Of a DNA stretch of 64,000 nt, positions 27,935 to 41,087 are shown piece by piece. Both the position numbers and the translations under genes were made by a program. The notes below the pieces were generated by a model, which was given only the letters and a program-made list of their open reading frames with translations, made no database searches and was not told the origin of the DNA. Position 1 is the first letter of the stretch; each line of letters starts with the position of its first letter. Source of the DNA: Ferrovibrio sp. (GTDB lineage Bacteria; Pseudomonadota; Alphaproteobacteria; Ferrovibrionales; Ferrovibrionaceae); contig NZ_JAOZVR010000118.1 of the NCBI RefSeq assembly GCF_025869515.1, forward strand, positions 1 to 64,000. Direction: 5' to 3'.

Positions 27935-28960
27935 TCACTCCCGCCCCCCACCAAACGTGACGGGCAGCATCTTCAACTTCACACCCGCCTTTTCTTTGGC
28001 GCGGTCCACCAGTTTCACGAGCGGCGTGTTGTCATGCTCGTCATCCCACTTGATGCGCCGATACCAGTACAGGTCCATGGTGCCCTTGGGCCATCCGATC
28101 GCATCGAGATGCCGGAGCTCCGACACCAGGGCCTGCTCCAGCTTCTCCGGCACCAAGGCCAGCGCGACCGCGCCCAGGCTCATACGGCGGGCATTTTCCC
28201 GGGGCGGTAGTTGCTCGACGGGGGTGAAATGCTTCTTCAGGTCCCCGCCATAGGTCGCTTTCAGCCCGGGGTCGGTGGCGCCTGGCCAGATCTGTTTCCT
28301 TGTTTTCAGGGACAGGCAGGCGAAATCGCACAGGGCCAGCCACGCCCAATACGTATCGAAGCCCTTGAGCAGCGGCGGGATTGCCTTCTTGTCACTAAAC
28401 GCGATGGCGAGCATGGCCTTTATGGCATGCAGGTCGGCGGCTTCCGCCTTTTCGACCTTCACTTTGGTCAGGTCGGTGCCGCATGTGCAGTGACGGATGG
28501 ATTTGGTGCGCCAGTCGAGGTGCTTTCCGCAATCCAGGCATTGCGTCAGCAGGCGCAGTTTGTGCTCCTGGCAGTGCTGGACGAATTTCCAGTCCCAGAC
28601 GGCCTTGTAGTAGCCATGCTCGCCCTTGATGCATTTCGGGCAGACACGGCGGGTCTTAATCAGGACGCCGAGGTTGTCGAGGTTACAGCCCAGCACAAAA
28701 GAGGCTTCGCTGTTCACTTCCGGTGCGAGCGGCCGCAATTTTTCGAAGGACTGCCGGGATATCGCCGCTATCCGTTTGACATCGGCGTCTGTGAAATTGC
28801 TCTTCTTCAGTTTGATGTCGGCACGGTCTGCGACTTCGCCTACGCGGGAGTCATTGGCTTCGGCGAGCCTCGCAAGATACCCAAAAATGCTTTCGTCGGC
28901 TTTGGGCGGGAATGTGGTGTTGAGTGGGCGTATATCTGCGATTGCCGAATGTTTGCTCAA
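27935..28960 (-). CDS. tniQ: TniQ family protein, second copy
   Basis: A 341-residue TniQ/TnsD-type target-selection protein. The N-terminus ADESIFGYLARLAEANDSRVGEVA is the TniQ signature. A zinc-binding region follows: CPKCIKGEHGYY, then HCQEHKLRLLTQCLDCGKHL and HCTCG. It is a paralogue of the 622-residue protein encoded 1.4 kb upstream (compare ADESILGYLLKAAGANDARTTTEVA). No ATG is available; TTG 28960 lies at the base of a long hairpin, with no visible ribosome-binding site. In Tn7-like elements such shorter TniQ proteins serve a second target pathway. No CRISPR effector is present. Confidence 0.82.
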   Translation of the reverse strand: MSKHSAIADIRPLNTTFPPKADESIFGYLARLAEANDSRVGEVADRADIKLKKSNFTDADVKRIAAISRQSFEKLRPLAPEVNSEASFVLGCNLDNLGVLIKTRRVCPKCIKGEHGYYKAVWDWKFVQHCQEHKLRLLTQCLDCGKHLDWRTKSIRHCTCGTDLTKVKVEKAEAADLHAIKAMLAIAFSDKKAIPPLLKGFDTYWAWLALCDFACLSLKTRKQIWPGATDPGLKATYGGDLKKHFTPVEQLPPRENARRMSLGAVALALVPEKLEQALVSELRHLDAIGWPKGTMDLYWYRRIKWDDEHDNTPLVKLVDRAKEKAGVKLKMLPVTFGGGRE

Positions 28961-29054: not shown

Positions 29055-30233
29055 CTATTTGCTTGCTCGCTCCTCCTGCGCAATCTTCCTGAAATGTCCG
29101 AAGCGTTTGGAGATTTCGGTTTCGATAGCGTCCAGGCCGGGGTGCTTTGTCATCGAGTTCCGGTGTGCGAGGTATGTGGGCAGCGGTAGCTCCAACGATT
29201 TTTGCAACGCTGGGAAGAGCAGCAGGATTTGACCAAAAGTGAAGTGGTGTCGGTCAGCGTCGGTCAGTTTGTTGGCACTGCAGCAGGCGACGACGCCAGA
29301 AATCCCGTCTCCAACCATCAGCGTCATCACGACGTCATTGCCGACGATATTCACGAGCAGGCTGACTGCGTGGGGGTGAGCCGCAAACTGTTTGATGCCG
29401 TCGGCACCCGCACCAAGGCTTCCGCTCCCTCGAACCTCCGGGCGCGGCTCTGACGGTTTAAACCATACGCCTTTGCGAACTTCTTCCGCGTATGGTCCGT
29501 CGAGTGCTGCATCTCCGAACAGGCAGAATGCGACGCCGCGACCAAGTTTGGCCAGGAAGCGGAAGTCGTAGTCCATGTGATACCTGATACCAGATTTGAT
29601 ATCTCCGCCTGTTGCCAGCTTAGTCAGGATTGCCAGCCGTTCGTCATCCAATTGGTCGGCTGGCTGAAATCCTATCGTTGCAGGGTCTGCACCATCGACG
29701 ACTGTCCCCATGACCTTTTTCACTTTCGGACGGTCAGAAAACGCGTCACGGAATGACTTCCACGTCGCATTGATGTCGAGATGTGAGCGTTCGGAGAATA
29801 AGAAGTAGGCGCGCGACTCCTTCGATTTTGTTGTCCTGGGATTTCCTCCGGAGTACCAGAACAACCGCTCATCGTGTGGTCGCACCCAATAGACCTGCTC
29901 GCCAAGCGGACCCATATACAACTCGCAGACATCGTCCTCGGTCATGCCCGGAAGATTCAATTCCATAACTGCCATACAGTATAAGGGGAGGCCACCTGGA
30001 TCTGATGGAAGATACAAATCCATCGCGTTCATCTTCAGCCAATTAGCGACGAGGAAGCTTCGGGCGAAGCTCGCATCGACGAAGAGGCCGAGATTGCTGT
30101 TGCAGGTTTTGCAGACGCAATGCGTTTTGTATTTGTCTGGAGCTTGCGCGCCACCAAGGAACTGCGGAATGGCGTGTTCCAGGCTCATGTCCTTCTCTGC
30201 CTTGTCTTCAAGGCAGTAGATACACTTGACCAT
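29055..30233 (-). CDS. HNH-type zinc-ribbon protein, transposon-encoded
   Basis: A 392-residue protein. The N-terminus has the pattern CIYC...EHAIPQFLGG...CVCKTCNSNLG, that is CxxC, a histidine in a strand before a proline-containing turn, CxxCN, as in HNH endonucleases. The remaining 330 residues are not recognised and contain no further cysteine pairs. It sits in the transposition gene run between the two tniQ-type genes. It may be defence cargo or an accessory nuclease. Nuclease activity is inferred from the motif. Confidence 0.6.
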   Translation of the reverse strand: MVKCIYCLEDKAEKDMSLEHAIPQFLGGAQAPDKYKTHCVCKTCNSNLGLFVDASFARSFLVANWLKMNAMDLYLPSDPGGLPLYCMAVMELNLPGMTEDDVCELYMGPLGEQVYWVRPHDERLFWYSGGNPRTTKSKESRAYFLFSERSHLDINATWKSFRDAFSDRPKVKKVMGTVVDGADPATIGFQPADQLDDERLAILTKLATGGDIKSGIRYHMDYDFRFLAKLGRGVAFCLFGDAALDGPYAEEVRKGVWFKPSEPRPEVRGSGSLGAGADGIKQFAAHPHAVSLLVNIVGNDVVMTLMVGDGISGVVACCSANKLTDADRHHFTFGQILLLFPALQKSLELPLPTYLAHRNSMTKHPGLDAIETEISKRFGHFRKIAQEERASK

Positions 30234-30360: not shown

Positions 30361-32229
30361 TCATACCGGTGCATGCAGCTTCAGCACGCGCTCCAGCTTC
30401 TCCGTTCTCCTGAACACAAACTGCCGCCCGCCATCCACGCCTGGCCCCGAAACTGGTTTGCAGCCTGTTGCCATCAGCTTCGTCGCCGCCCACCCTCGAT
30501 GTCTGCCAGCATCCAGCCCGAGCTGGCTCGGAAACACGTAGGTTTCGCGGAACCGCTTCATCTCGGCGGACGACACCAGCTGGCCGTTCACTCCCAGCTC
30601 GCAATGCGTCTTGAGCAGGCCCTGGCGGCATAGGTGATACGCCACCTCCTGCTTGACCTTTAACACGATGGCGGCCTCAGGAATGGTCAGGGCTCCGCCG
30701 GACGGCTGCGGCCGCTGCACCAGGCGGTCGACATTCAGGACGATGCGGGCCAGGCCCTTGGATTTCTCGTCGACCCAGGCGGAGTTCAGGTGCCTGGGCA
30801 GCGACTTCGGTTCGAAGTCCACCTTCGCAAAGCGACCGGACGAGATGGCATCGGACAGCCGGACGCGTCGGTCGGGCGGCCGGTTCGCGCCGCAGGCCCG
30901 GCAAAACAGGTCGACCAGGGATTCCAGGCCGTCTGCCTTCCATGACGGCCTGCCGAACAGTTCGGCCGCCGGGCCGCTGCCTGCCGACTTCCATAGCCAG
31001 CCGACCATTTCGGCCTTGGCCAACCCCATCCGCGATACCCGCAGGATGCGGCGGGCGCCCTTCCGGTCAACCAGGCCTTCCAGCTCTCCTCGCAGGCGCT
31101 CGACGACTGCTGCCTGAACCAGGATGGCGGCGCCGCTACCACCACCGTCCCATGCCTCCACCAGCTTGTGCTTCTTCAGGACGGCGCCGACACGGACGAC
31201 AGAGCGGTTCAGGCGTTTCTTGGCCTGCGTCAGGGTGACGAGCTTGCCGGTCCGGTTCCGCGACACCTTCCTGGTGCGGAAGCGAATGGTTTCATCGGCA
31301 TCCAGGTAGTCCTCCAGGGCTTCCCGGACGACACGCTGGGTCTCCGGCGCCACCGTGCGGTCGACCATCCAGTCACTCAGGCGACCAAAGGACTTCACGA
31401 TGCCATACCGGCCGTTGCGGCCACCGGCACCCTGCTGGAGTTGCTCGAACAGTGCGTGGATGCCGCGGGGCCAGTCCTGGCAGACCTGCCATCCGGCGTT
31501 GACCAGGAGATGCGTAACCATCCCACGCTCCAGCATACGGATGGGGCGTGGCCGCCGGGACATGCCGGTTGCCAGAGCACCAAGCTGCAGGCACAAGTCC
31601 ATCAGCGTGGCCACCGAAACGTCAGGCACGCCTTTGGGAAGCCTGCCACCGGTCAGGATGGCCTGGAGCTGCCTCAGCCCTACCAGGTCTGATGCCAGTA
31701 CCTTGTTGGCCTTCGCTCGCAAAAGATTACCGCCACAATGGCACCGCGTCGAACTTCCCCGTGTCCAGCCGAGCTTGCCCTCGCATTTCGGGCAGCGTGA
31801 CTGCAACTGCCGCCCGTGCTCGACACAGGCTGTCGAAATGCTCAGGTCCCAGACGGCGCGATGGCGGCCATTCTCCTTCAGGCAGGCCGGGCAATATCGG
31901 CGGTGCTCGGTGGTGACGAACTGATGGCCAATCTGGTGACCTAGGAAGTTGACGGTCTTGCCGCCTTTGGCTGGCCAGTATGTCGCGCGGAGCAAGGCAT
32001 CCGCTGGCTGGCCAAGCAAAGTGGGCAATGCGCGTAGTTTGGTAGGAACGGTTGCCAGTGATGGGAGCCAGCGAAGCTGGATACCGGCACGGGCCGCGAC
32101 TTCGGTGGTGGTGCGGGCGTCGTTGGCGCCTGCTGCTTTGAGCAGGTAGCCGAGAATGGATTCATCGGCATAGAGGCGCGGACGGGAATTGAGCCGCACC
32201 GTGGGGTCAGATTTCACGGCGCGGCTCAT
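30361..32229 (-). CDS. tnsD: TnsD/TniQ family target-site selection protein
   Basis: A 622-residue protein with an N-terminal TniQ domain (YADESILGYLLKAAGANDARTTTE) and zinc-binding clusters CPACLKENG, CVEHGRQLQSRCPKCEGKLG and CHCGGNLL. A long C-terminal part contains helix-turn-helix-like stretches (LTIPEAAIVLKVKQEVAYHLCRQGLLK). The length is above the roughly 500 residues of Tn7 TnsD. It starts two bases after the tnsC stop, so it is coupled. Its role is to bind a specific attachment site and recruit TnsC. The target is not known; the element does not lie near a glmS gene in this window. Confidence 0.85.
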   Translation of the reverse strand: MSRAVKSDPTVRLNSRPRLYADESILGYLLKAAGANDARTTTEVAARAGIQLRWLPSLATVPTKLRALPTLLGQPADALLRATYWPAKGGKTVNFLGHQIGHQFVTTEHRRYCPACLKENGRHRAVWDLSISTACVEHGRQLQSRCPKCEGKLGWTRGSSTRCHCGGNLLRAKANKVLASDLVGLRQLQAILTGGRLPKGVPDVSVATLMDLCLQLGALATGMSRRPRPIRMLERGMVTHLLVNAGWQVCQDWPRGIHALFEQLQQGAGGRNGRYGIVKSFGRLSDWMVDRTVAPETQRVVREALEDYLDADETIRFRTRKVSRNRTGKLVTLTQAKKRLNRSVVRVGAVLKKHKLVEAWDGGGSGAAILVQAAVVERLRGELEGLVDRKGARRILRVSRMGLAKAEMVGWLWKSAGSGPAAELFGRPSWKADGLESLVDLFCRACGANRPPDRRVRLSDAISSGRFAKVDFEPKSLPRHLNSAWVDEKSKGLARIVLNVDRLVQRPQPSGGALTIPEAAIVLKVKQEVAYHLCRQGLLKTHCELGVNGQLVSSAEMKRFRETYVFPSQLGLDAGRHRGWAATKLMATGCKPVSGPGVDGGRQFVFRRTEKLERVLKLHAPV

Positions 32230-32231
32230 GG

Positions 32232-33335
32232 TCAGGCAGCCTTCATGACGGCAGCCGGGGTAAGCTGACGCTTACCCTTGTAGGCATTCACCTGGTGGTC
32301 CGGCAGGTCGGTGATGGGTGTGGACGCCGGAACCTTGGTGTCATCGACCTCGAACACGTTGAACCAGCCCTTGTCGCGGGGCCGTTTGTGGCAGTTCACC
32401 ATGTCCTTCAGGAGCTCGTCGGACATCACAGTGACGCCGTCTTCCAGGGCGATTTCGAGCGCCTCGACGAGCAGGTCTGTGGTGCGCGGAAACAGACCGC
32501 CGGACAGGTAGTTCAGCCGGTAGGCAATCCGGGGCTCCGCAATCATCCCTGCGTTTTCCAGCGGGATGTTCTTGGCGTACATCCTGAGCAGCACGATGAA
32601 CTGGGCGCGTTCAGCAGGATTGTTCCAGTCGAAGCGGTCCATGGTGAATTCACCGATGGAGCGACGGACCAGCTCGCCGTTGTTATAAAAGATGGGCTCT
32701 GCCTCGATGGTGCCAGCCAGCATGACCGAGCAGGCATTCTTGTTGAGAATGGCCTTGAAGAAGTTCGACGTGACTTTGGTCGTCTTCTCGTCGGTGTAGT
32801 GACCCGCATGCTGTAGTTCGTCGAAGATGGCGAGTTCGACGCCATTCTTGATAAGCTGACGCACCATGCGGTCGATGAGCTCGGATGCGCTTTCCCGGCT
32901 TTTCTTGTCGCCCATGGCATTCATCAGGCGCAGGCACTTCTGGGCCAGTGCACCCGGCGTCGACGCCGGGTCGATGGGCACGTACAGAACCGGCCAGATG
33001 GTCTGCCTCACGTCACCAATGGTGTCTTCCTTGGGCTGCACAATCTCTGCGGCCGTGCGCAGCAGGCGCGTCTTGCCGCTGCCTGATGGGCCGGTCACCA
33101 GCACGCTGGCGGCCGATGCGCCGACCCTGGAGCCAGAATTGCCGTAGAGCCGCAGGCGGCGCATGGCCCTCAGCACATCTTTGATTTGACCGTACTCCAG
33201 GTAGGCACTGCGCAGGTCCACGACCTTCTGCACGCGCTGGGTTTCGGGCAGCAGGATGCGGGGAGCCTTCGCCCCCTCCGAAGAGGGGGCGGTCTTGGTG
33301 GCGGCGGTGGGGCGGGTGTTGTCGTTGGTAGCCAT
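32232..33335 (-). CDS. tnsC: TnsC/TniB-type AAA+ ATPase transposition regulator
   Basis: A 367-residue AAA+ ATPase. Walker A is VTGPSGSGKTRLL (about residues 80-92), Walker B is ELAIFDELQHAG, and a sensor-1-like region is SVMLAGTIEA. It connects the target-selecting TniQ/TnsD proteins to the TnsA/TnsB transposase. It lies between tnsB (18 bases upstream) and tnsD (2 bases downstream), the standard gene order. ATG 33335 is preceded by a GGAGACC site. Confidence 0.9.
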   Translation of the reverse strand: MATNDNTRPTAATKTAPSSEGAKAPRILLPETQRVQKVVDLRSAYLEYGQIKDVLRAMRRLRLYGNSGSRVGASAASVLVTGPSGSGKTRLLRTAAEIVQPKEDTIGDVRQTIWPVLYVPIDPASTPGALAQKCLRLMNAMGDKKSRESASELIDRMVRQLIKNGVELAIFDELQHAGHYTDEKTTKVTSNFFKAILNKNACSVMLAGTIEAEPIFYNNGELVRRSIGEFTMDRFDWNNPAERAQFIVLLRMYAKNIPLENAGMIAEPRIAYRLNYLSGGLFPRTTDLLVEALEIALEDGVTVMSDELLKDMVNCHKRPRDKGWFNVFEVDDTKVPASTPITDLPDHQVNAYKGKRQLTPAAVMKAA

Positions 33336-33353: not shown

Positions 33354-35429
33354 TTAGGCGACAGATTTGTCGGTCTGGGTGATGCCGTACTTGGCGGCGA
33401 GTGCGTCGAGATCCTCCATGGTCAGGTCCTCGTTGTCCGCGCTGAGGTCGACCGCAGGCGTGGCGACAAAGGACTCCGTGCCGGTGATGGTGGTGTTGAC
33501 GGCGGCACCCGGGTCGAGACGCTCGCCGCCCGCACGCTTGTTCTCAGTGCCAATGGCATTGATGATGCGCTTGGACAGGGCGAACCGTTTCTCGCGGATA
33601 AGCTGCTTGACCTGGTCGTGGAATTCGCGACGTGCGGCCATGAGCATGTGGAAGGTGACGCGTTCGCGTTCCTTCAGGCGCGCCTTGGCCCTGGCCAGGA
33701 TGACGCCATGCTCGCGCAGAGACAGGCCCTGGGCGTACTCCTGGTCCACGCAGGGGAGCTCGAAGTACGTCCCGCTGCGCCAGTCCAGCACCCAGACCGA
33801 ACCCAGGTTGTCCGGATTGTACTTGACCCGCACGACCTCGGGCTTATCTGCCCGGTTGATGAGTTTTTGCATGAACTCGCCCTGCTTGTTGTAGCGCATA
33901 TTGAAGATTTCGATGCCCTTGCGGGTCAGCGAGCGAAGCTCAGTGCGCGTCAACAGGATGTCGAGATCCTTGATGTCGTCGGGAAGACGGACAGGGTAGT
34001 CAGCCACACCCGCCTTCCAGGCATCGAGCGGAATGTCGCCGATGCCACGGTGCTCGGAGACCGAGTAGACCATGACCAGCCACTTGACGAGCATGTGCCA
34101 CAGTGCCTCCAGCGTGATGGCGGCATTCTTCACCGCGTCGTAGTCGCCACGCTGCTCCGGGTTGGACCGGGTGGTGCCGGGAAGCTGGTGAATCAGGTCT
34201 TCCTCGATACGCCGGAACAGGCGCTCGATTTTGCCCTTCTGCTGCGGACGACGAACGGCACAGAAGACGACCTCAATGCCGAGACCCTGGCAGGCGATTT
34301 TGAAGTCCTCGCCGTGGAATTCAGAGCCGTTGTCGACGAACAGGGTCACCGGCATGCCGTAGCAAGGCCACTCCCCGATGATGTCGGGGAACTTCGCCAA
34401 CAGGTCATCCTTCCACCCGATGGCGTTCTTGAGCGCCAGCGCGACGGTGTGGAAGCTCGGCGGTTCGAAGCCGATATGCATGCCGACGACCATGCGGCTC
34501 TTGCGATCGAGCAGCAGAGTCAGCCAAGGCCTGCCGATTGGCAGCCTCGTCTCGTGGTCAACGACCACGATGTCGAGCAGGTGATGGTCGACTTCGACTT
34601 CGTTCAGCGGGAACTTGCCGTCCGAGCCCTTCAGGACTGGGATGCACAGGCGCCGCATCGCTTCCGAGCCTTTCTGGGCGCGCATGACCTCATCCAGCGG
34701 AAGCTGCCGGATGTACTTCCGCACGGTGGGAAGGCTCGGGAACCTCAGCTTCCCATTTTCCATGTAGATGGGGTTCTTGCCGTCCGGCGCCATCCGCAGG
34801 ACGATGTCCTTGATGAATTTGAAGATCTTGGTCACCGGCTGCGGATTGCGCCGCATGTAGTGGACTTCGATCTGGTCATCGATAACGCCGACAACTTCGG
34901 GGTCGAAACGCGGTTCCGCATTGCCACGAAGGTAGTACCTCGGCGCCAGCCAGCGCAGGTCGGCGCCGTCCGTGCGACCGTGGCGCATCATCAGCCGTGC
35001 CCATTCGGACACGCGGCGGGCACTCGGCGGCTTCTTGCCCGAGTTATCGTTCGCTGCTGCCTCACAGATGATGGGACCCAGGGCCGCTTCGGAGTACGAC
35101 CTCGGCGGCGGGTTTGCCACGCGAACCGCACTCAGATAGTGCCAACGGCGATTGATTTCGTTGAGGATGTGCTGCGGATACTCAGACAGAAGGCGGCTGA
35201 GTTCCTGCTTTTCCTTCTCCGTAATCAGGGACTGCGTGCTGTCCTTGACGCGGATAAGTTCGCCCTCCGTCCACAGCTTCATCAGCTGATTGTCGGTCTT
35301 GGAGATGATTTCGCCGGTATCCGGGTCTTCCAGCTGGACATAGCCGTTCTTCGTGCGACCGAAGAACTTGTAGACCTTGCCGGAAAGGCTCAGGCGTTCA
35401 CCCTTGGTGAAGTTGATGACATTACTCAT
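33354..35429 (-). CDS. tnsB: TnsB-type DDE transposase
   Basis: A 691-residue transposase of the Mu/TnsB retroviral-integrase superfamily. The DDE residues are D286 in EVDHHLLDIVVVD, D366 in TLFVDNGSEFHG and E402 in QQKGKIERLF. The C-terminal mu-type beta-barrel region follows. The first 65 residues form a small domain (KVYKFFGRTKNGY, DPDTGEIISKTDNQLMKLW, GELIRV) that recurs in two separate tiny genes of the same operon. It cuts and joins the 3' ends at the transposon termini. Start ATG 35429 overlaps the preceding small gene by 8 bases. Confidence 0.92.
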   Translation of the reverse strand: MSNVINFTKGERLSLSGKVYKFFGRTKNGYVQLEDPDTGEIISKTDNQLMKLWTEGELIRVKDSTQSLITEKEKQELSRLLSEYPQHILNEINRRWHYLSAVRVANPPPRSYSEAALGPIICEAAANDNSGKKPPSARRVSEWARLMMRHGRTDGADLRWLAPRYYLRGNAEPRFDPEVVGVIDDQIEVHYMRRNPQPVTKIFKFIKDIVLRMAPDGKNPIYMENGKLRFPSLPTVRKYIRQLPLDEVMRAQKGSEAMRRLCIPVLKGSDGKFPLNEVEVDHHLLDIVVVDHETRLPIGRPWLTLLLDRKSRMVVGMHIGFEPPSFHTVALALKNAIGWKDDLLAKFPDIIGEWPCYGMPVTLFVDNGSEFHGEDFKIACQGLGIEVVFCAVRRPQQKGKIERLFRRIEEDLIHQLPGTTRSNPEQRGDYDAVKNAAITLEALWHMLVKWLVMVYSVSEHRGIGDIPLDAWKAGVADYPVRLPDDIKDLDILLTRTELRSLTRKGIEIFNMRYNKQGEFMQKLINRADKPEVVRVKYNPDNLGSVWVLDWRSGTYFELPCVDQEYAQGLSLREHGVILARAKARLKERERVTFHMLMAARREFHDQVKQLIREKRFALSKRIINAIGTENKRAGGERLDPGAAVNTTITGTESFVATPAVDLSADNEDLTMEDLDALAAKYGITQTDKSVA

Positions 35430-35658
35430 GGTTCGTCTCCTTGTAGGTTTCAGGGATGATGGGGTACTGGAAGGGCACGCTGACCCGGAACAGACGTCCC
35501 CGGGACCAGAGCTCCTTCATTTCGTCCTCGGACTTCTTGAGGTACGTGCCGGTGGCAGCGCTGCGGAGCAGGTAGTTGCCTTGCCGGTCATGCCCTTCGA
35601 AGTCGAAGAGTTCGGCGTCGAGGTCGAAGTACTCGCGCCAGTAGTTGGGCTTCTGCAT
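35422..35658 (-). CDS. Stand-alone TnsB N-terminal-domain-like protein
   Basis: A 78-residue protein between tnsA and tnsB. Its core ELFDFEGHDRQGNYLLRS, ATGTYL, DEMKELWSRGRLFRV aligns with residues 17-62 of TnsB (KVYKFFGRTKNGYVQLED, DTGEII, NQLMKLWTEGELIRV): G, TG, LW, G, L and RV positions agree. It therefore looks like the TnsB N-terminal domain encoded alone. It overlaps tnsB by 8 bases, so it should be made together with the transposase. It may bind the same partner or DNA as that TnsB domain. No family name is known to me. Confidence 0.65.
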   Translation of the reverse strand: MQKPNYWREYFDLDAELFDFEGHDRQGNYLLRSAATGTYLKKSEDEMKELWSRGRLFRVSVPFQYPIIPETYKETNHE

Positions 35659-35670
35659 GCATGTCTCCTT

Positions 35671-36396
35671 TCAGAAGCGGCGGTTGGCAGCCCAGATCCG
35701 GCTGTCGAGGGACAGCGGTGCTGAGTGCAAATCGATGTGGAAGTGGCGGCGCAGGGCCAGGTTCAGCAGGTAGCCGAAGGACGCCTTCGGCCAGTCAAGG
35801 CGAACCAGCAGGTCGCCAAGCGTCTGGGGCCGGTGGAGAACCACGGCTTCGGTGACCTGATAGCGGGTGCGCTCACTCGGCTTGTGCAGCCGCTCCAGCA
35901 GCAACCGCTCGGCATTCTGCAGGCGTGGCTGCTTGCGGATATCCACTTCGGTATAGACCTCGAAGTGGACGCCACGGCTGGCATAGAGCTGGGTGATGAA
36001 GTCCCACCACTCCTTGTCACGCCGGTAGATTTTCTCCGGCTTGACCTCGTAGATCTCCATCGTGCGGTCTTCGTATTGGATGAAGCCGTCCGGAGTGTAG
36101 GTGTGGGTCTTCTCCTCATAGGTGAAGCGGATGGGCTGCGGCTGGACGCCGTAGGCAATGATGCTTCCCTCGGTCTCGTTCAGCCGGATGCGGTCGCGCT
36201 CCAGGAAGGACTCGTAGTCCATTTCCACGCCCATCATTAGGCTGGGGAAGCGACCGACCATCCATGGCTTCCCACGGCGTTTCGGTCCGCTTTTCAGGAC
36301 GTTCCGACTCGGCTTGTGAGCGGCGATGGTGTCGTCATGCTGTAAATTCGGCACAGCGATGCCCGTGGCGCCCGCAGGCGCGCTAAAAGTGCTCAT
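35671..36396 (-). CDS. tnsA: TnsA endonuclease
   Basis: A 241-residue TnsA-type nuclease. The catalytic triad is visible as the glutamate of DYESFLERD (about residues 60-68), the aspartate of YTPDGFI (about 103) and the lysine of YEVKPEK (about 119). A winged-helix TnsA C-terminal region follows (ERTRYQVTEAVVLHRPQTLGDLL). It cuts the 5' ends at the transposon, allowing cut-and-paste movement with TnsB. It lies 12 bases upstream of the 78-residue gene. Start ATG 36396. Confidence 0.9.
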   Translation of the reverse strand: MSTFSAPAGATGIAVPNLQHDDTIAAHKPSRNVLKSGPKRRGKPWMVGRFPSLMMGVEMDYESFLERDRIRLNETEGSIIAYGVQPQPIRFTYEEKTHTYTPDGFIQYEDRTMEIYEVKPEKIYRRDKEWWDFITQLYASRGVHFEVYTEVDIRKQPRLQNAERLLLERLHKPSERTRYQVTEAVVLHRPQTLGDLLVRLDWPKASFGYLLNLALRRHFHIDLHSAPLSLDSRIWAANRRF

Positions 36397-36412
36397 GTAG
36401 ATTCTCCTAGGG

Positions 36413-36757
36413 TTAGCGGGCGGCTCGGCGGCTCGTCAGCGGGATGCAGTCCTGACAGCGGTCAGGCAGGTACCGCAGCGGAACCCCGATATCGACGATG
36501 CCGTCCTTCGGTGCCACCTCAAGCAGTGACTGCGCCCTGACGTCGTTGTAGTCGGGATTAATCCCGTGGATCGACTCCATGTAGTCGTACGGACGCATCC
36601 ACTTGATACCGTTGTGCACCCAGTAGCCGGTCTCGCAACTGAGGACGACGAGCCCCTCTTCGTATTCGCGCTCCTCAAGCGGCCAGCGCTTGAAGTTATC
36701 GTTCGCGACGTCCTGATAGCTCAGGCCCATACGTCGGCTCAGGAAATTGTCGGTCAT
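36413..36757 (-). CDS. Hypothetical protein in transposition operon
   Basis: A 114-residue protein starting at ATG 36757 after an AAAGGACACC site. It contains VANDNFKRWPLEEREYEEGLVVLS and GYWVHNGIKWMRPYDYMESIHG, and I recognise no family. It has no membrane segment or signal peptide. It lies 16 bases upstream of tnsA and just after the second small TnsB-domain gene, so it belongs to the transposition operon and is probably an accessory factor. Confidence 0.5.
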   Translation of the reverse strand: MTDNFLSRRMGLSYQDVANDNFKRWPLEEREYEEGLVVLSCETGYWVHNGIKWMRPYDYMESIHGINPDYNDVRAQSLLEVAPKDGIVDIGVPLRYLPDRCQDCIPLTSRRAAR

Positions 36758-36773
36758 GGCGGTGTCCTTTCTG

Positions 36774-37010
36774 TTAGGCAGCCATCGAGAGGGGAGAAGC
36801 AGCGTGAGCGGTGAGCTCACGCTGCCGACGAAATCGGCCCTGGAGTTTCAGGTCGAGCAGCTGGCAGTCGCTGGTCGTCACCTCCAGGCCGTCGGACAGA
36901 CGCCTCAGGGTGACGATTGCGGAATGCACGGCGGGGACCCAGGACTTGACCCGGTAGACACGGCGGTCGATTTCGACGACCTCGTCGGTCTTGAGGTTCA
37001 CGAGGTTCAT
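36774..37010 (-). CDS. Stand-alone TnsB N-terminal-domain-like protein, second copy
   Basis: A 78-residue protein. Its start MNLVNLKTDEVVEIDRRVYRVKSW parallels the TnsB start MSNVINFTKGERLSLSGKVYKFFGR (V, T, E and VY positions agree), followed by a TLRR...DGLEVTTSDCQLLDL region that corresponds to the LED...TGEIISKTDNQLMKL strand-turn-helix of TnsB. The ATG overlaps the stop of the upstream short TnsB-like gene (ATGA). With the other 78-residue protein it makes a small family of separated TnsB domains in one operon. Confidence 0.55.
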   Translation of the reverse strand: MNLVNLKTDEVVEIDRRVYRVKSWVPAVHSAIVTLRRLSDGLEVTTSDCQLLDLKLQGRFRRQRELTAHAASPLSMAA

Positions 37011-37633
37011 CGCACGCGCTCCTTCTGAGTGTGGTCCAGGACGATGATGTCCAGCTGGCTGTGGTCGATCTCGATGGTCGGCAGAGGGCGGCCGTTGGTG
37101 ACCGCATTCCTGCGCTCAAGCTCCCGCCGCGCCAACCGCGAGAGCCTGCGCTCGTTACGGCTCTTCACGTGCGGCACATACAGGACCGGCCCCGGGACGC
37201 TCGCGCTCACCTGGATGCCGAGCGCGCGGCAGCTGCGCTTGAAGTTCGCCTCAAAGTCCGCCGAGCTGAAGTCACCAGGAACTCCGCAGCGGGCATCAAG
37301 GTCGACAATCTTCGGCGCGGCGACAGGCCAACCCACCGTCAGTTTCGTGAGCGCTTCAGCCTTCCGCCAATAGCGGTCCGCGACAAAGGCATCACGGTCA
37401 GTTACCCAATTCATGGGAAGCGGCTTGCCAACTGGAAGGCAGACCTGCTCAGGCTGACTGCGCTTGCCGCGGATAGCCATTGCGAGCATCTGCCCGACGC
37501 GGGACGTGGGCCGGGCAATGGGCTGGCCGTCCGGCGAGAACCAGGTCGCGCCAGTGGTGGAGACGAGTGTGTCGCGGTCTACTGCAGACACACGGGGGGC
37601 GTTTGCGCCGAAGGGCGCAGTAATGACCTGCAT
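37007..37633 (-). CDS. Short TnsB-like protein lacking most of the catalytic core
   Basis: A 208-residue protein starting at ATG 37633 after GGAGGCCTCT. The C-terminal end reads LPTIEIDHSQLDIIVLDHTQ, matching the first-aspartate motif of TnsB (NEVEVDHHLLDIVVVDHET), and then stops after five more residues. The second aspartate and the glutamate are absent, so it cannot be an active transposase. The preceding 190 residues (KIVDLDARCGVPGDFSSADFEANFKRSC) are TnsB-linker-like at best. Its stop overlaps the next gene start (ATGA), which argues for a maintained short gene over random decay. It could be a regulator of transposition. Confidence 0.55.
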   Translation of the reverse strand: MQVITAPFGANAPRVSAVDRDTLVSTTGATWFSPDGQPIARPTSRVGQMLAMAIRGKRSQPEQVCLPVGKPLPMNWVTDRDAFVADRYWRKAEALTKLTVGWPVAAPKIVDLDARCGVPGDFSSADFEANFKRSCRALGIQVSASVPGPVLYVPHVKSRNERRLSRLARRELERRNAVTNGRPLPTIEIDHSQLDIIVLDHTQKERVR

Positions 37634-38134: not shown

Positions 38135-38653
38135 TCATTGAGCGGCATCCAGCGGTAGGGACATCTGCCACTCCGCCTTTGCATGCCACTTCATTTCGAA
38201 CGGGTCATACAGGCCGGGCAGTTCGAAGTGGTCATTGATTCTCATGAAGTGACGGACGTTGTGGGTGGCTATGGCCGCCCCAGCCGCGATGCTGGTGGCA
38301 GCTATCATCAGGTCGGCGCCCGGGACTGACTTCTTACTACGGGGGTTCACAACGACCAGGTCATGGAGCGCGGGGGTCTCCCGCATGCGGGCCAGAACCA
38401 GAGCGGCCTCGCCGGTAAATGGGATGATGGGCAGACTGGGGAGCACGGCTTCATATAGCCACTTCATGGCCGGACCAGCCGACGGTGAGTTGCTGGCTTT
38501 CAGGCGATCGACCCCGATCTGGAGTTCGGCGACCGTAATGGCGGTGGTCACAAGAGTGTCAGCTGGCGTCGAGATGAGCCACTGCACCAAGTTGGGGTGG
38601 GGCTTCAGTTTATGGGTGTTGGATAGGACGTCGGTGTCGAGGATGATGCGCAC
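38135..38653 (-). CDS. vapC: VapC-type PIN domain toxin
   Basis: A 172-residue PIN-domain ribonuclease toxin. Acidic residues are in IILDTDVLSN at the N-terminus, TVAELQIGV (glutamate), and PGADLMIAATSI (aspartate), with THNVRHF after it, in the order typical of VapC/FitB proteins. It is longer than the usual 130 residues by a C-terminal tail (YDPFEMKWHAKAEWQM). It starts 2 bases after the antitoxin stop. It is expected to cleave specific RNAs when the antitoxin is lost, and may stabilise the element. Confidence 0.85.
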   Translation of the reverse strand: MRIILDTDVLSNTHKLKPHPNLVQWLISTPADTLVTTAITVAELQIGVDRLKASNSPSAGPAMKWLYEAVLPSLPIIPFTGEAALVLARMRETPALHDLVVVNPRSKKSVPGADLMIAATSIAAGAAIATHNVRHFMRINDHFELPGLYDPFEMKWHAKAEWQMSLPLDAAQ

Positions 38654-38655
38654 AC

Positions 38656-38937
38656 CTAGCCCCCGGCATCCGACCCTCGGGTGCCTGGAGACTTCGGTGT
38701 ATCTCGGACGTCCTTCAACGCACGATCCAAATCGCTCTCTCCAGGCGCGGCGAACCCGCTCGATAGCAGGGGAGATTTAATCAGGTGCTCGGCTTTCTCG
38801 AAATAGGTTTTTGAGACCATCACGGCCTCGGCACCATCTTCTGTCACAATCGAGACGGGATTACCGGCAGCGACTTCCTCAATCAGGTCGCTCAGCTTCG
38901 ATGCTGCGATGTCAACTTTGATGACCTTCAATGTCAT
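38656..38937 (-). CDS. Phd/YefM-type antitoxin
   Basis: A 93-residue antitoxin. KVDIAASKLSDLIEEVAAGNPVSIVTEDGAEAVMVSKTYFEK is the Phd/YefM DNA-binding fold; the C-terminal part (ESDLDRALKDVRDTPK) would neutralise the toxin. It is encoded directly before the VapC toxin gene and probably represses the pair's promoter in the 38938-39157 gap, which also carries three GTCAA repeats around 38995-39050. Confidence 0.82.
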   Translation of the reverse strand: MTLKVIKVDIAASKLSDLIEEVAAGNPVSIVTEDGAEAVMVSKTYFEKAEHLIKSPLLSSGFAAPGESDLDRALKDVRDTPKSPGTRGSDAGG

Positions 38938-39157
38938 CTCGCGCTCCGGTGTCGCCTACTCTGCCCTGCCCTACTCCTTACGCTTTTCTACTTGTCAACT
39001 TTGCGGTCGGGCAGTCAACAAATCATCGCGCAGTCGTCAAGCGAACGCCAGAAATTTATGGGCAAGCCACTGTGCCCGAAATTCCGTGTCTTGCAAGCAC
39101 ACCGGTTATGTTTGAACGCCGACAGATATGGCGACAACAAAAACCGGTGACGAGTAA

Positions 39158-40024
39158 ATGGAAGACGCGCAGAAGCAGGCAGTGGGTGGGGATTTCGAAA
39201 TCCGGCAGGTGCCACCTCGTTCTGGAGGGCCGTCAAGATGGAAGTCGACGCTGGCGCGGAATCCCGAAAGCCAGAAGTCGCGCCACTTCGAAACCATATT
39301 CCGCATCCTGAATGAGCGGCGCAGCCCGGTGCATGTCCGTGAGTTTGTTCACGCTGGCGTCGAGCCGAGTTCGTTGCGCAGCTTGGTTTATGACGGCGCC
39401 ATCACCAATCCCATGCACGGGGTCTACTATCTTGCTGAGGCGTATGATCCGTTCTTGATGGCGATCGCCGGTCTTTCGACCTTGAGTAATGACTTCGTTG
39501 TGGGCTTGAAGAGTGCCGCTCAGTACCATGGCCTCATCACGAAGCCAGACGACAATCTCTGGATTGCCATCCCGTATGGCAAGTCCGCGGTGAAGGCAGC
39601 AGGGGACTATCGCACGGTGGCTGTCCGTTGGCAGAACATGATGCCACCGACGGAGCCGATGGTGGTGTCTGAGATTGGTGACGGAATGGTCGATCATTGG
39701 GTGACGGCGCCTCGCGATGACATGGAAGCGACGGAACGCTACTTTGGATTCAGCACTGAGGTGCTGTTCGGTCGAGAGTGCCTGATCACGACACCTTCAA
39801 AAACCGTATGTGATATGCTGAGAAACATGAACCGATTGGTCGGCAAGGACATGTCGTTCGCGCGTTATATCTCTGAGGGCGACGCGTTTGACGCGCTCAA
39901 GAGCTATTCGGAGCGATACGACCTGATGGACCTACGCCGCATGGCTGACCGGCACGGGTGCCTTCCGGATATCGAGCGGCATATCAGCCTTGCCGAAAGG
40001 TTTGCGGTCGGCCTGCGGCGTTAA
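39158..40024 (+). CDS. AbiEi-like antitoxin/transcriptional regulator, orphan
   Basis: A 288-residue protein of the type IV AbiEi antitoxin superfamily. The N-terminal winged helix is HFETIFRILNERRSPVHVREFVHAGVEPSSLRSLVYDGAI, followed by HGVYYLAEAY. The later part has LKSAAQYHGLIT and CLITTPSKTVCDMLRNMNRL, characteristic of the family's C-terminal domain. The usual AbiEii nucleotidyltransferase toxin is absent; a membrane protein gene follows on the opposite strand. The start ATG 39158 is uncertain because no strong ribosome-binding site precedes it. It is probably a regulator or an antitoxin remnant carried as cargo. Confidence 0.7.
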   Translation: MEDAQKQAVGGDFEIRQVPPRSGGPSRWKSTLARNPESQKSRHFETIFRILNERRSPVHVREFVHAGVEPSSLRSLVYDGAITNPMHGVYYLAEAYDPFLMAIAGLSTLSNDFVVGLKSAAQYHGLITKPDDNLWIAIPYGKSAVKAAGDYRTVAVRWQNMMPPTEPMVVSEIGDGMVDHWVTAPRDDMEATERYFGFSTEVLFGRECLITTPSKTVCDMLRNMNRLVGKDMSFARYISEGDAFDALKSYSERYDLMDLRRMADRHGCLPDIERHISLAERFAVGLRR

Positions 40025-40056
40025 GCGGCGCGCCGACCAGGAGGACGATTAGCCCT

Positions 40057-40650
40057 TCATCTCAGCGCCGCAGCAACTTGCTCCTTTGTCGGCTTCTTTG
40101 ACATTAAGTTGGTCAAACCGCCAAAGACACCAATGGCCAGGAGAAGTGCTCCCAGGATTGCGCTGCCGAGAGACCAGAACCCTGCGGTCTTTGACCAATC
40201 ATTGTTCGCAAAAAGGATGATTGGCACGATCATCAGAAGTCCAATCCAGAACGCATAGACAGAGCCCATGCGTTTGGCTTTCCATTCAGCCCAACCATCC
40301 GCGATATGACCATCCTCGTACCGCATGCCGATTAAAATCGGCCAGGCATCGTTCGTAAAAACATAAGTAGCATCAGTGCCCACCAGGGCGTGGGATCGCA
40401 TAACTGGCAACGCCTGCACATTCTCTAACGAGACATCTTGACCGTCTGAACTCTCGATACGCCAAACGGGCCATCTGGCAAACTCACCCGATTTTGGAAT
40501 CTCATATTCGCTTTGGTACTGAAGTCGGCCCGTAATGACCCTGAGCGGCGCCATCCAATCTACCCCGTGGTTTAATTTGACCCGATTCGCCAGCAAGACC
40601 CGACTCTCGCTCGCAAATAAGATGTAATACGTCTCTTTTATATTCTGCAA
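40057..40650 (-). CDS. Hypothetical membrane protein, DUF3592-like
   Basis: A 197-residue protein. The N-terminal 125 residues are soluble and beta-rich (YYILFASESRVLLANRV, YATYVFTNDAWPILIG). Two transmembrane segments follow (VYAFWIGLLMIVPIILFA and FWSLGSAILGALLLAIGVFGG), with a cytoplasmic-like tail MSKKPTKEQVAAALR. The domain layout recalls DUF3592-type membrane proteins; this is a weak match. It converges on the AbiEi-like gene. Its function is unknown. Confidence 0.45.
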   Translation of the reverse strand: MQNIKETYYILFASESRVLLANRVKLNHGVDWMAPLRVITGRLQYQSEYEIPKSGEFARWPVWRIESSDGQDVSLENVQALPVMRSHALVGTDATYVFTNDAWPILIGMRYEDGHIADGWAEWKAKRMGSVYAFWIGLLMIVPIILFANNDWSKTAGFWSLGSAILGALLLAIGVFGGLTNLMSKKPTKEQVAAALR

Positions 40651-40700
40651 TCAAAGAAATACAACGCTATACGTCGTGGTAGTTTTCGCCCTCTGGGACC

Positions 40701-41087
40701 ATGGTCCCGGGCATGAAAGAGCGGGACATACTCGTCGGCCTGGGCGCCAGAATCCGGGTTTTCCGGAAGGCTGCCGGGCTATCTCAGGCCAAGCTGGCGG
40801 AGGAGGTCGGGGTCACCCTTGAGACAATCGGCCGTATAGAAAGAGGCATCCATTTCGCCTCAGCGTTGAACCTGGGTCGCATAGCCACCGCGGTCGGCCG
40901 CAATATCGATGAGCTGTTCGCGGCCACGCCCCGGGTCCGCAAGAAGGCTGAACTGGCCGCCATCGATCAGGCCGTTGATCAGTTCCGAGCCATGCTGGAG
41001 ACCGGTCAGGCTATCGATGTCGAGGATTTGGCTGCCGTGTTCGACAAGGCCGCCAAGAAGCAGCCTAAGACGGTTAGGAAGCGCTGA
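40701..41087 (+). CDS. XRE family helix-turn-helix regulator
   Basis: A 128-residue regulator. The XRE domain is RIRVFRKAAGLSQAKLAEEVGVTLETIGRIERGIHFAS at about residues 20-60. A basic C-terminal tail follows (KKQPKTVRKR). It ends 64 bases before the tentative right end of the transposon. It is divergent from the membrane protein gene and may control it. A start four codons downstream (ATG 40713) is also possible. Confidence 0.82.
   Translation: MVPGMKERDILVGLGARIRVFRKAAGLSQAKLAEEVGVTLETIGRIERGIHFASALNLGRIATAVGRNIDELFAATPRVRKKAELAAIDQAVDQFRAMLETGQAIDVEDLAAVFDKAAKKQPKTVRKR

Follow-up and report, generated by a model that had tools for sequence, protein, structure and literature searches.

Why would a transposon encode the N-terminal domain of its own transposase again, as small proteins that stand alone? 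The question is raised by a stretch of 64,000 nucleotides from Ferrovibrio sp. (contig NZ_JAOZVR010000118.1, positions 1 to 64,000; the whole stretch is called the window below), in which a single Tn7-like operon was found on the minus strand, running from 37741 to 27935 in the order 244-aa gene, S2, 114-aa gene, tnsA, S1, tnsB, tnsC, tniQ, HNH gene and second tniQ. S1 (35422..35658) lies between tnsA and tnsB, and S2 (36774..37010) lies upstream of tnsA. An earlier note on this DNA had described the two as separate genes, each encoding the N-terminal domain of TnsB on its own; the positions that it gave for S1, S2 and TnsB (33354..35429) proved exact, and the three proteins have 78, 78 and 691 residues.

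The remaining genes of the operon, all on the minus strand, form a recognizable Tn7-like set, with TnsA, TnsB, TnsC and TniQ assigned by Pfam. The first gene (37007..37633) encodes 208 aa from its better ribosome site and 244 aa if read from 37741. Between S2 and tnsA lies a 114-aa gene (36413..36757), called on codon use and a ribosome site and unassigned to a family; Pfam, NCBIfam and PHROGs all gave no match for it, and we saw no equivalent of it in the sister elements described below. It is followed by tnsA (35671..36396, 241 aa; PF08722, 38.4 bits against a cut-off of 26.5), by tnsB, identified as a DDE transposase by Pfam and alignment, by tnsC (32232..33335, 367 aa, a TniB-type AAA ATPase), by a tnsD-like tniQ (30361..32229, 622 aa), by an HNH endonuclease-like gene (29055..30233, 392 aa; HNH_5) and by the second tniQ (27935..28960, 341 aa). 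The families recovered were TnsA-like N, Mu-transpos_C, TniB, AAA and TniQ (twice), and rve scored slightly below its cut-off. In an alignment of four TnsB, residues D281, D366 and E402 were invariant, and their position suggests that they are the catalytic D, D and E. No paired end repeats were found by simple scans of the likely transposon border regions. As in other Tn7-like transposons, tnsA, tnsB, tnsC and tniQ are all in one operon; what differs here is the presence of extra free TnsB domains, which are missing from 20 further TnsB loci.

S1 and S2 look like real genes, having ribosome sites, codon use like that of the tns genes and overlaps with their neighbours. Using a codon model trained on tnsA, tnsB, tnsC, both tniQ genes and the HNH gene of the window, we found that S1, S2, the 114-aa gene and the 208-aa gene each have a positive score that is the best of six frames in the called frame, 78–85% G+C at third codon positions and a purine-rich ribosome site. 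The overlaps claimed in the earlier note were also present, the end of S1 sharing 8 bases with the start of tnsB and the start of S2 sharing 4 bases with the stop of the preceding gene. Both frames end after 78 residues at their own stop codons and are not joined to DNA-binding or DDE domains. As S1 and tnsB are adjacent and one reading frame apart, S1 might be taken for the front of a longer TnsB whose frame was broken by an error in sequencing or assembly; however, tnsB has its own ribosome site and an ATG inside the end of S1, the sister TnsB proteins start at the same domain, and a split would leave S2 and the sister ORFs unexplained, all of which makes such an error extremely improbable.

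The domain that S1 and S2 resemble is encoded by the part of tnsB for residues 1–66 (35232..35429), as indicated by alignment and profile. Aligning the three sequences gave an identity of 27% between S1 and the TnsB N-terminus and of 18% between S1 and S2. A profile of four TnsB N-termini gave 18.1 bits for S1 and 12.9 bits for S2, values reached by none of 5000 shuffles of each; the 71-aa ORFs found upstream of tnsA in two sister elements scored 9.7 and 9.0 bits, with 1 of 5000 shuffles of the second scoring higher (12.0). When the same profile was run, without preselection, against all 3222 six-frame ORFs of at least 40 codons from the window and 12 loci, the top hits apart from the TnsB used for training were S1 (E 0.00044) and S2 (0.046), followed by two TnsB (0.1 and 0.13), the sister ORFs (0.19 and 0.31) and an unrelated frame (0.42). 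We also built a profile from 15 TnsB N-termini, without the small ORFs, and searched 5204 six-frame ORFs from the window and 30 loci. The top four matches other than TnsB were the sister ORF of L013 (8466-8690, E 0.0019), S1 (0.0021), the sister ORF of L014 (10536-10760, 0.0025) and S2 (0.0045), the next being at E 1.1. Because two of these four free domains are near-identical sisters, they represent three independent cases. The claim of two separate genes for the lone domain is thus backed by profile searches and, for S1, also by the predicted fold, and we are highly confident in reading both proteins as homologues of the TnsB N-terminal domain that are encoded on their own.

The two genes may have different histories. 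Compared with the own-clade TnsB N-termini, S1 has an identity of 25–26%, and one other TnsB N-terminus (L061) likewise gives 25%. In the tree it groups with the own-clade TnsB N-termini with a local support of 0.81, as expected from a duplication of the 5′ end of the clade's own tnsB, which would be its most likely origin. S2 is 22–28% identical to the own-clade TnsB N-termini, its top value being 32% to the TnsB of L064, and only 20% to the sister ORFs, so that it is poorly conserved between the window and the sisters; S2 and the sister ORFs have no resolved placement in the same tree. S2 may descend from an older free domain located upstream of tnsA in the three elements found for the clade.

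To predict the fold of S1, we ran AlphaFold2 with 18 relatives, namely three free domains and 15 TnsB N-termini, with no Tn7 sequence added. The model has a pLDDT of 90–94 in the blocks covering residues 11–60 (overall mean 77.8) and consists of four strands, a helix and a final strand, forming an SH3-like barrel. The best three Foldseek matches in the PDB were chains of E. coli Tn7 TnsB (7pik), with probabilities of 0.99–1.00 and an rmsd of 2.1–2.2; their E-values are weak (0.15–0.28), and none of the 701 matches reaches 0.001. Among the matches listed, many of the other 47 were SH3, Tudor or PWWP domains with lower probability. Since TnsB rows were present in the S1 alignment, this result is only partly independent of the sequence result. 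A structural match to the TnsB N-terminus, on which the earlier note had staked its claim, was therefore found for S1, the protein that was modelled. The N-terminal domain of E. coli Tn7 TnsB has the same fold as predicted for S1, but there it is the first part of the full transposase, whereas here it is a separate protein. Searching PDB sequences with the N-terminal profile gave chance-level matches only (best E 0.32). In the TnsB of I-F3 CRISPR-associated elements, profile matches start only at profile position 73–74, and these proteins seem to be without this N-terminal domain. In the subset of PubMed Central searched by titles and abstracts, we found no account of free TnsB N-terminal domains, no paper combining TnsB with SH3-like and no description of the N-terminal domain.

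Two sister elements of the same clade were found, one in the window's own genome (L014, contig C88; TnsB 41% identical) and one in a congener (L013, contig C146 of genome G010; TnsB 42% identical). The three elements share the order helix-turn-helix gene (40701-41087 in the window), PIN-domain gene, tns genes and second tniQ, the last being reversed in orientation in both sisters relative to the window. The cargo upstream of the operon in the window (38135-41087) comprises a PIN-domain gene, an AbiEi-like gene scoring slightly below its cut-off and a helix-turn-helix gene, and this cargo order is common to the window and both sisters. In both sisters, tnsA is preceded by a 118-aa gene followed by a 71-aa gene, with a gap of ~245–280 bases between the latter and tnsA. 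The 71-aa gene is a free TnsB domain placed like S2, between the first gene and tnsA, and the two 71-aa proteins, which the earlier note does not mention, are near-identical to each other. There is no S1 in the sisters, because tnsB starts 21 bases after the end of tnsA in both. The earlier note had named the absence of the small genes from all related elements as grounds for rejection; S2 has a positional equivalent in both sisters, and S1 has none there. The 118-aa gene had appeared by eye to be related to the 244-aa gene of the window and to TnsB, a candidate that was dropped when profile and pairwise shuffle tests did not support it; between the sisters, it shows a dN/dS of 0.24 (Fisher p 7e-6).

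These comparisons bear on whether the small ORFs are functionless debris of a tnsB duplication. As might be expected of debris, these ORFs show low identity to TnsB, S1 is confined to one element, and most of the relatives examined have no copies. On the other hand, the frames are intact, with ribosome sites and codon use of their own, and the 71-aa gene has a dN/dS of 0.22 between the sisters (Fisher p 0.016–0.027), that is, fewer amino-acid changes than expected, although only 10 changes are available. We therefore consider debris very unlikely. The analysis shows the homology, the coding signals, the operon position, the predicted fold of S1 and the amino-acid constraint on the sister copy; at the sequence level, it is established that free TnsB N-terminal domains are encoded by a Tn7-like element.

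We further asked how far such free domains have spread. Twenty further TnsB loci were fetched, 19 from 38 places outside the window's genome and one from another search, and none contained a free domain by the 15-TnsB profile; between tnsA and tnsB, no free domain was found in these 20 loci or in the sister elements. The search that the earlier note had proposed, for other Tn7-like elements with such small genes between or before tnsA and tnsB, was thus positive for the two sisters, upstream of tnsA, and negative for the 20 further loci. For genome searches, we used a profile of all 19 domains, including the four free ones, on two genome draws that share some genomes, scoring at most 15 candidates per genome; the free domains of the window's genome and of the congener match this profile by construction, and absence elsewhere is consequently the informative part. 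At least 16 of 385 genomes of the class had a match up to E 0.05. Among the class matches listed, strong stand-alone frames (75, 82 and 113 aa; E ≤6e-16) occurred in the window's genome only, and the other two frames below 150 aa, a 41-aa one (with a stop) in G182 and a 103-aa one in G217, had E-values of 0.03–0.04, a level expected by chance among 385 genomes. In G363, a 207-aa frame (E 2.5e-4) continues, by eye, as TnsB to the end of the fetched stretch. In the phylum, matches with E-values up to 0.01 came from at least 19 of 398 genomes; those listed from outside the window's genome were all in frames of 621–821 aa. A targeted search of seven genomes showed the one free domain of the congener. 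Scanning genome contigs with exact short patterns returned two loci, the known sister element and a relative in Aestuariispira insulae, the latter with no small genes between tnsA and tnsB, and a viral pattern scan returned one locus. Relatives of the 244-aa, 114-aa and S1 proteins were sought in plasmids with chance-level matches only.

What might the free domains do? The earlier note had suggested that they compete with TnsB for a partner, help assembly or set the transposition frequency. We propose that S1 and S2, as free homologues of the small SH3-like TnsB N-terminal domain made from the transposition operon, would occupy the docking site that TnsB's own N-terminal domain uses, either on TnsA or on an adjacent TnsB, and could in this way restrict transposition-complex assembly or set its timing. 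The element would perhaps make a loose piece of its own machine, tuning how often it jumps. Their position at the operon head and beside tnsB would suit a regulator or partner made together with the transposase. Transposase-derived regulators are known: the Tn5 inhibitor protein and IS911 OrfA are both products of the transposase gene, arising from an alternative start or through a frameshift, and they contain regions for DNA binding or dimerisation. The likeness is that the same element makes a piece of its transposase, regulation being our proposal here; in contrast to those proteins, separate and diverged genes encode one small domain here. We favour a modulator on account of the position at the operon head and beside tnsB, the absence from the other relatives examined and the precedent of such transposase-piece regulators. 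That S1 occurs in one element only and that S2 is weakly conserved relative to the sisters count against the explanation. Competition with TnsB's own domain for a docking partner is accordingly offered as a tentative mechanism, and the full explanation, judged mainly by its mechanism, comes close to an even chance without reaching it.

The main rival to a competing modulator is that S1 and S2 act positively, as structural subunits with places of their own in the TnsA–TnsB complex, for example by bridging TnsA to TnsB, and are required for transposition. The S1 gene lies precisely between tnsA and tnsB, and the overlap of its end with the tnsB start suggests coupled synthesis; but as no free domain lies between tnsA and tnsB in the sisters and the 20 further loci, the reaction generally needs none, and we regard required subunits as unlikely, if still a serious competitor. 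The charge of the proteins raises a different possibility. S1 is acidic (pI 5.4), whereas S2 and the sister proteins are basic (pI 9.6–10.1), so they possibly have no common role. S2 and the 71-aa sister proteins might then be DNA-binding regulators of the operon or of a transposon end that have kept the fold and lost the TnsB-domain partner, S1 being a separate case. Consistent with this, the place upstream of tnsA is taken in 2 of the 20 fetched relatives (L062 and L064) by what, by eye, is a helix-turn-helix gene; however, no DNA-binding domain was recognised with Pfam or PHROGs, and the region upstream of the operon contained no repeated site except short imperfect ones, which leaves DNA-binding regulators decidedly unlikely.

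If the proposed competition is correct, it would give a role to the TnsB N-terminal domain, and the free domains would mark a TnsB surface used for control. Tn7-like elements and the CRISPR-associated elements related to them are under study as tools for inserting DNA. A natural piece of TnsB with a gene of its own would be a direct handle on the element's control of itself and could perhaps be used as a switch.

The first gene of the operon bears on a more far-reaching alternative, in which S1, S2 and the 37007-37633 protein together are a dismantled second TnsB, its core circularly permuted so that the first catalytic strand comes after the last catalytic helix. They would form a shadow transposase, silent in catalysis, that joins TnsB in a complex and thereby controls it. 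At residues 182–201, the 208-aa protein matches TnsB's first catalytic strand with 19.6 bits (best of 5000 shuffles 9.7), a match that we count as sound and that the earlier note does not mention. Searched against the whole of its own genome, the 244-aa protein had no other matches up to E 10 than the same strand in three TnsB, each weak (E 0.47, 0.61 and 2.8). A permuted profile (TnsB 350–414 placed before 268–295) matched in one uninterrupted stretch with 26.9 bits, against 7.0 for the best of 5000 shuffles, and an earlier permuted profile reached 24.2 bits (best shuffle 8.8), compared with 20.6, 18.7 and 16.9 bits for profiles in natural order (best shuffles 13.6, 10.7 and 6.4). Although the permuted match scores best, three points count against permutation: the first piece of the permuted profile alone reached only 7.0 bits (best shuffle 6.9), a wider permuted profile split the match into two pieces (3.0 and 17.8), and the test region was picked after an earlier match had pointed there. 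The permutation is thus not secure. No complete DDE core was recognised in this protein, which has no Pfam match and whose sound match covers the first catalytic strand only, and its single-sequence fold model (pLDDT 34) was unusable. Like debris, a shadow transposase seems very unlikely to us.

Several features of the related elements were also observed. A stretch of 190 bases after the 71-aa gene (L014 10764-10953, L013 8694-8883) is 96.3% identical between the sisters, alongside 95.4% for the 71-aa gene, 91.8% for tnsA and 87.6% for tnsB; it has stops in all three forward frames and is perhaps a regulatory site. In the place of the HNH gene, the sisters have a 476-aa gene (L014 16890-18320, L013 14809-16239), the L013 copy of which has no Pfam match. 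A third tnsB of the window's genome (L018; contig C77, 2-1294) runs off the contig end and is adjoined by tnsA. Three other Tn7-like elements of the genus (L015, L016 and L017) have the gene order tniQ-tnsA-tnsB and lie beside a gene that, by eye, we take to be lepA, a possible attachment site.
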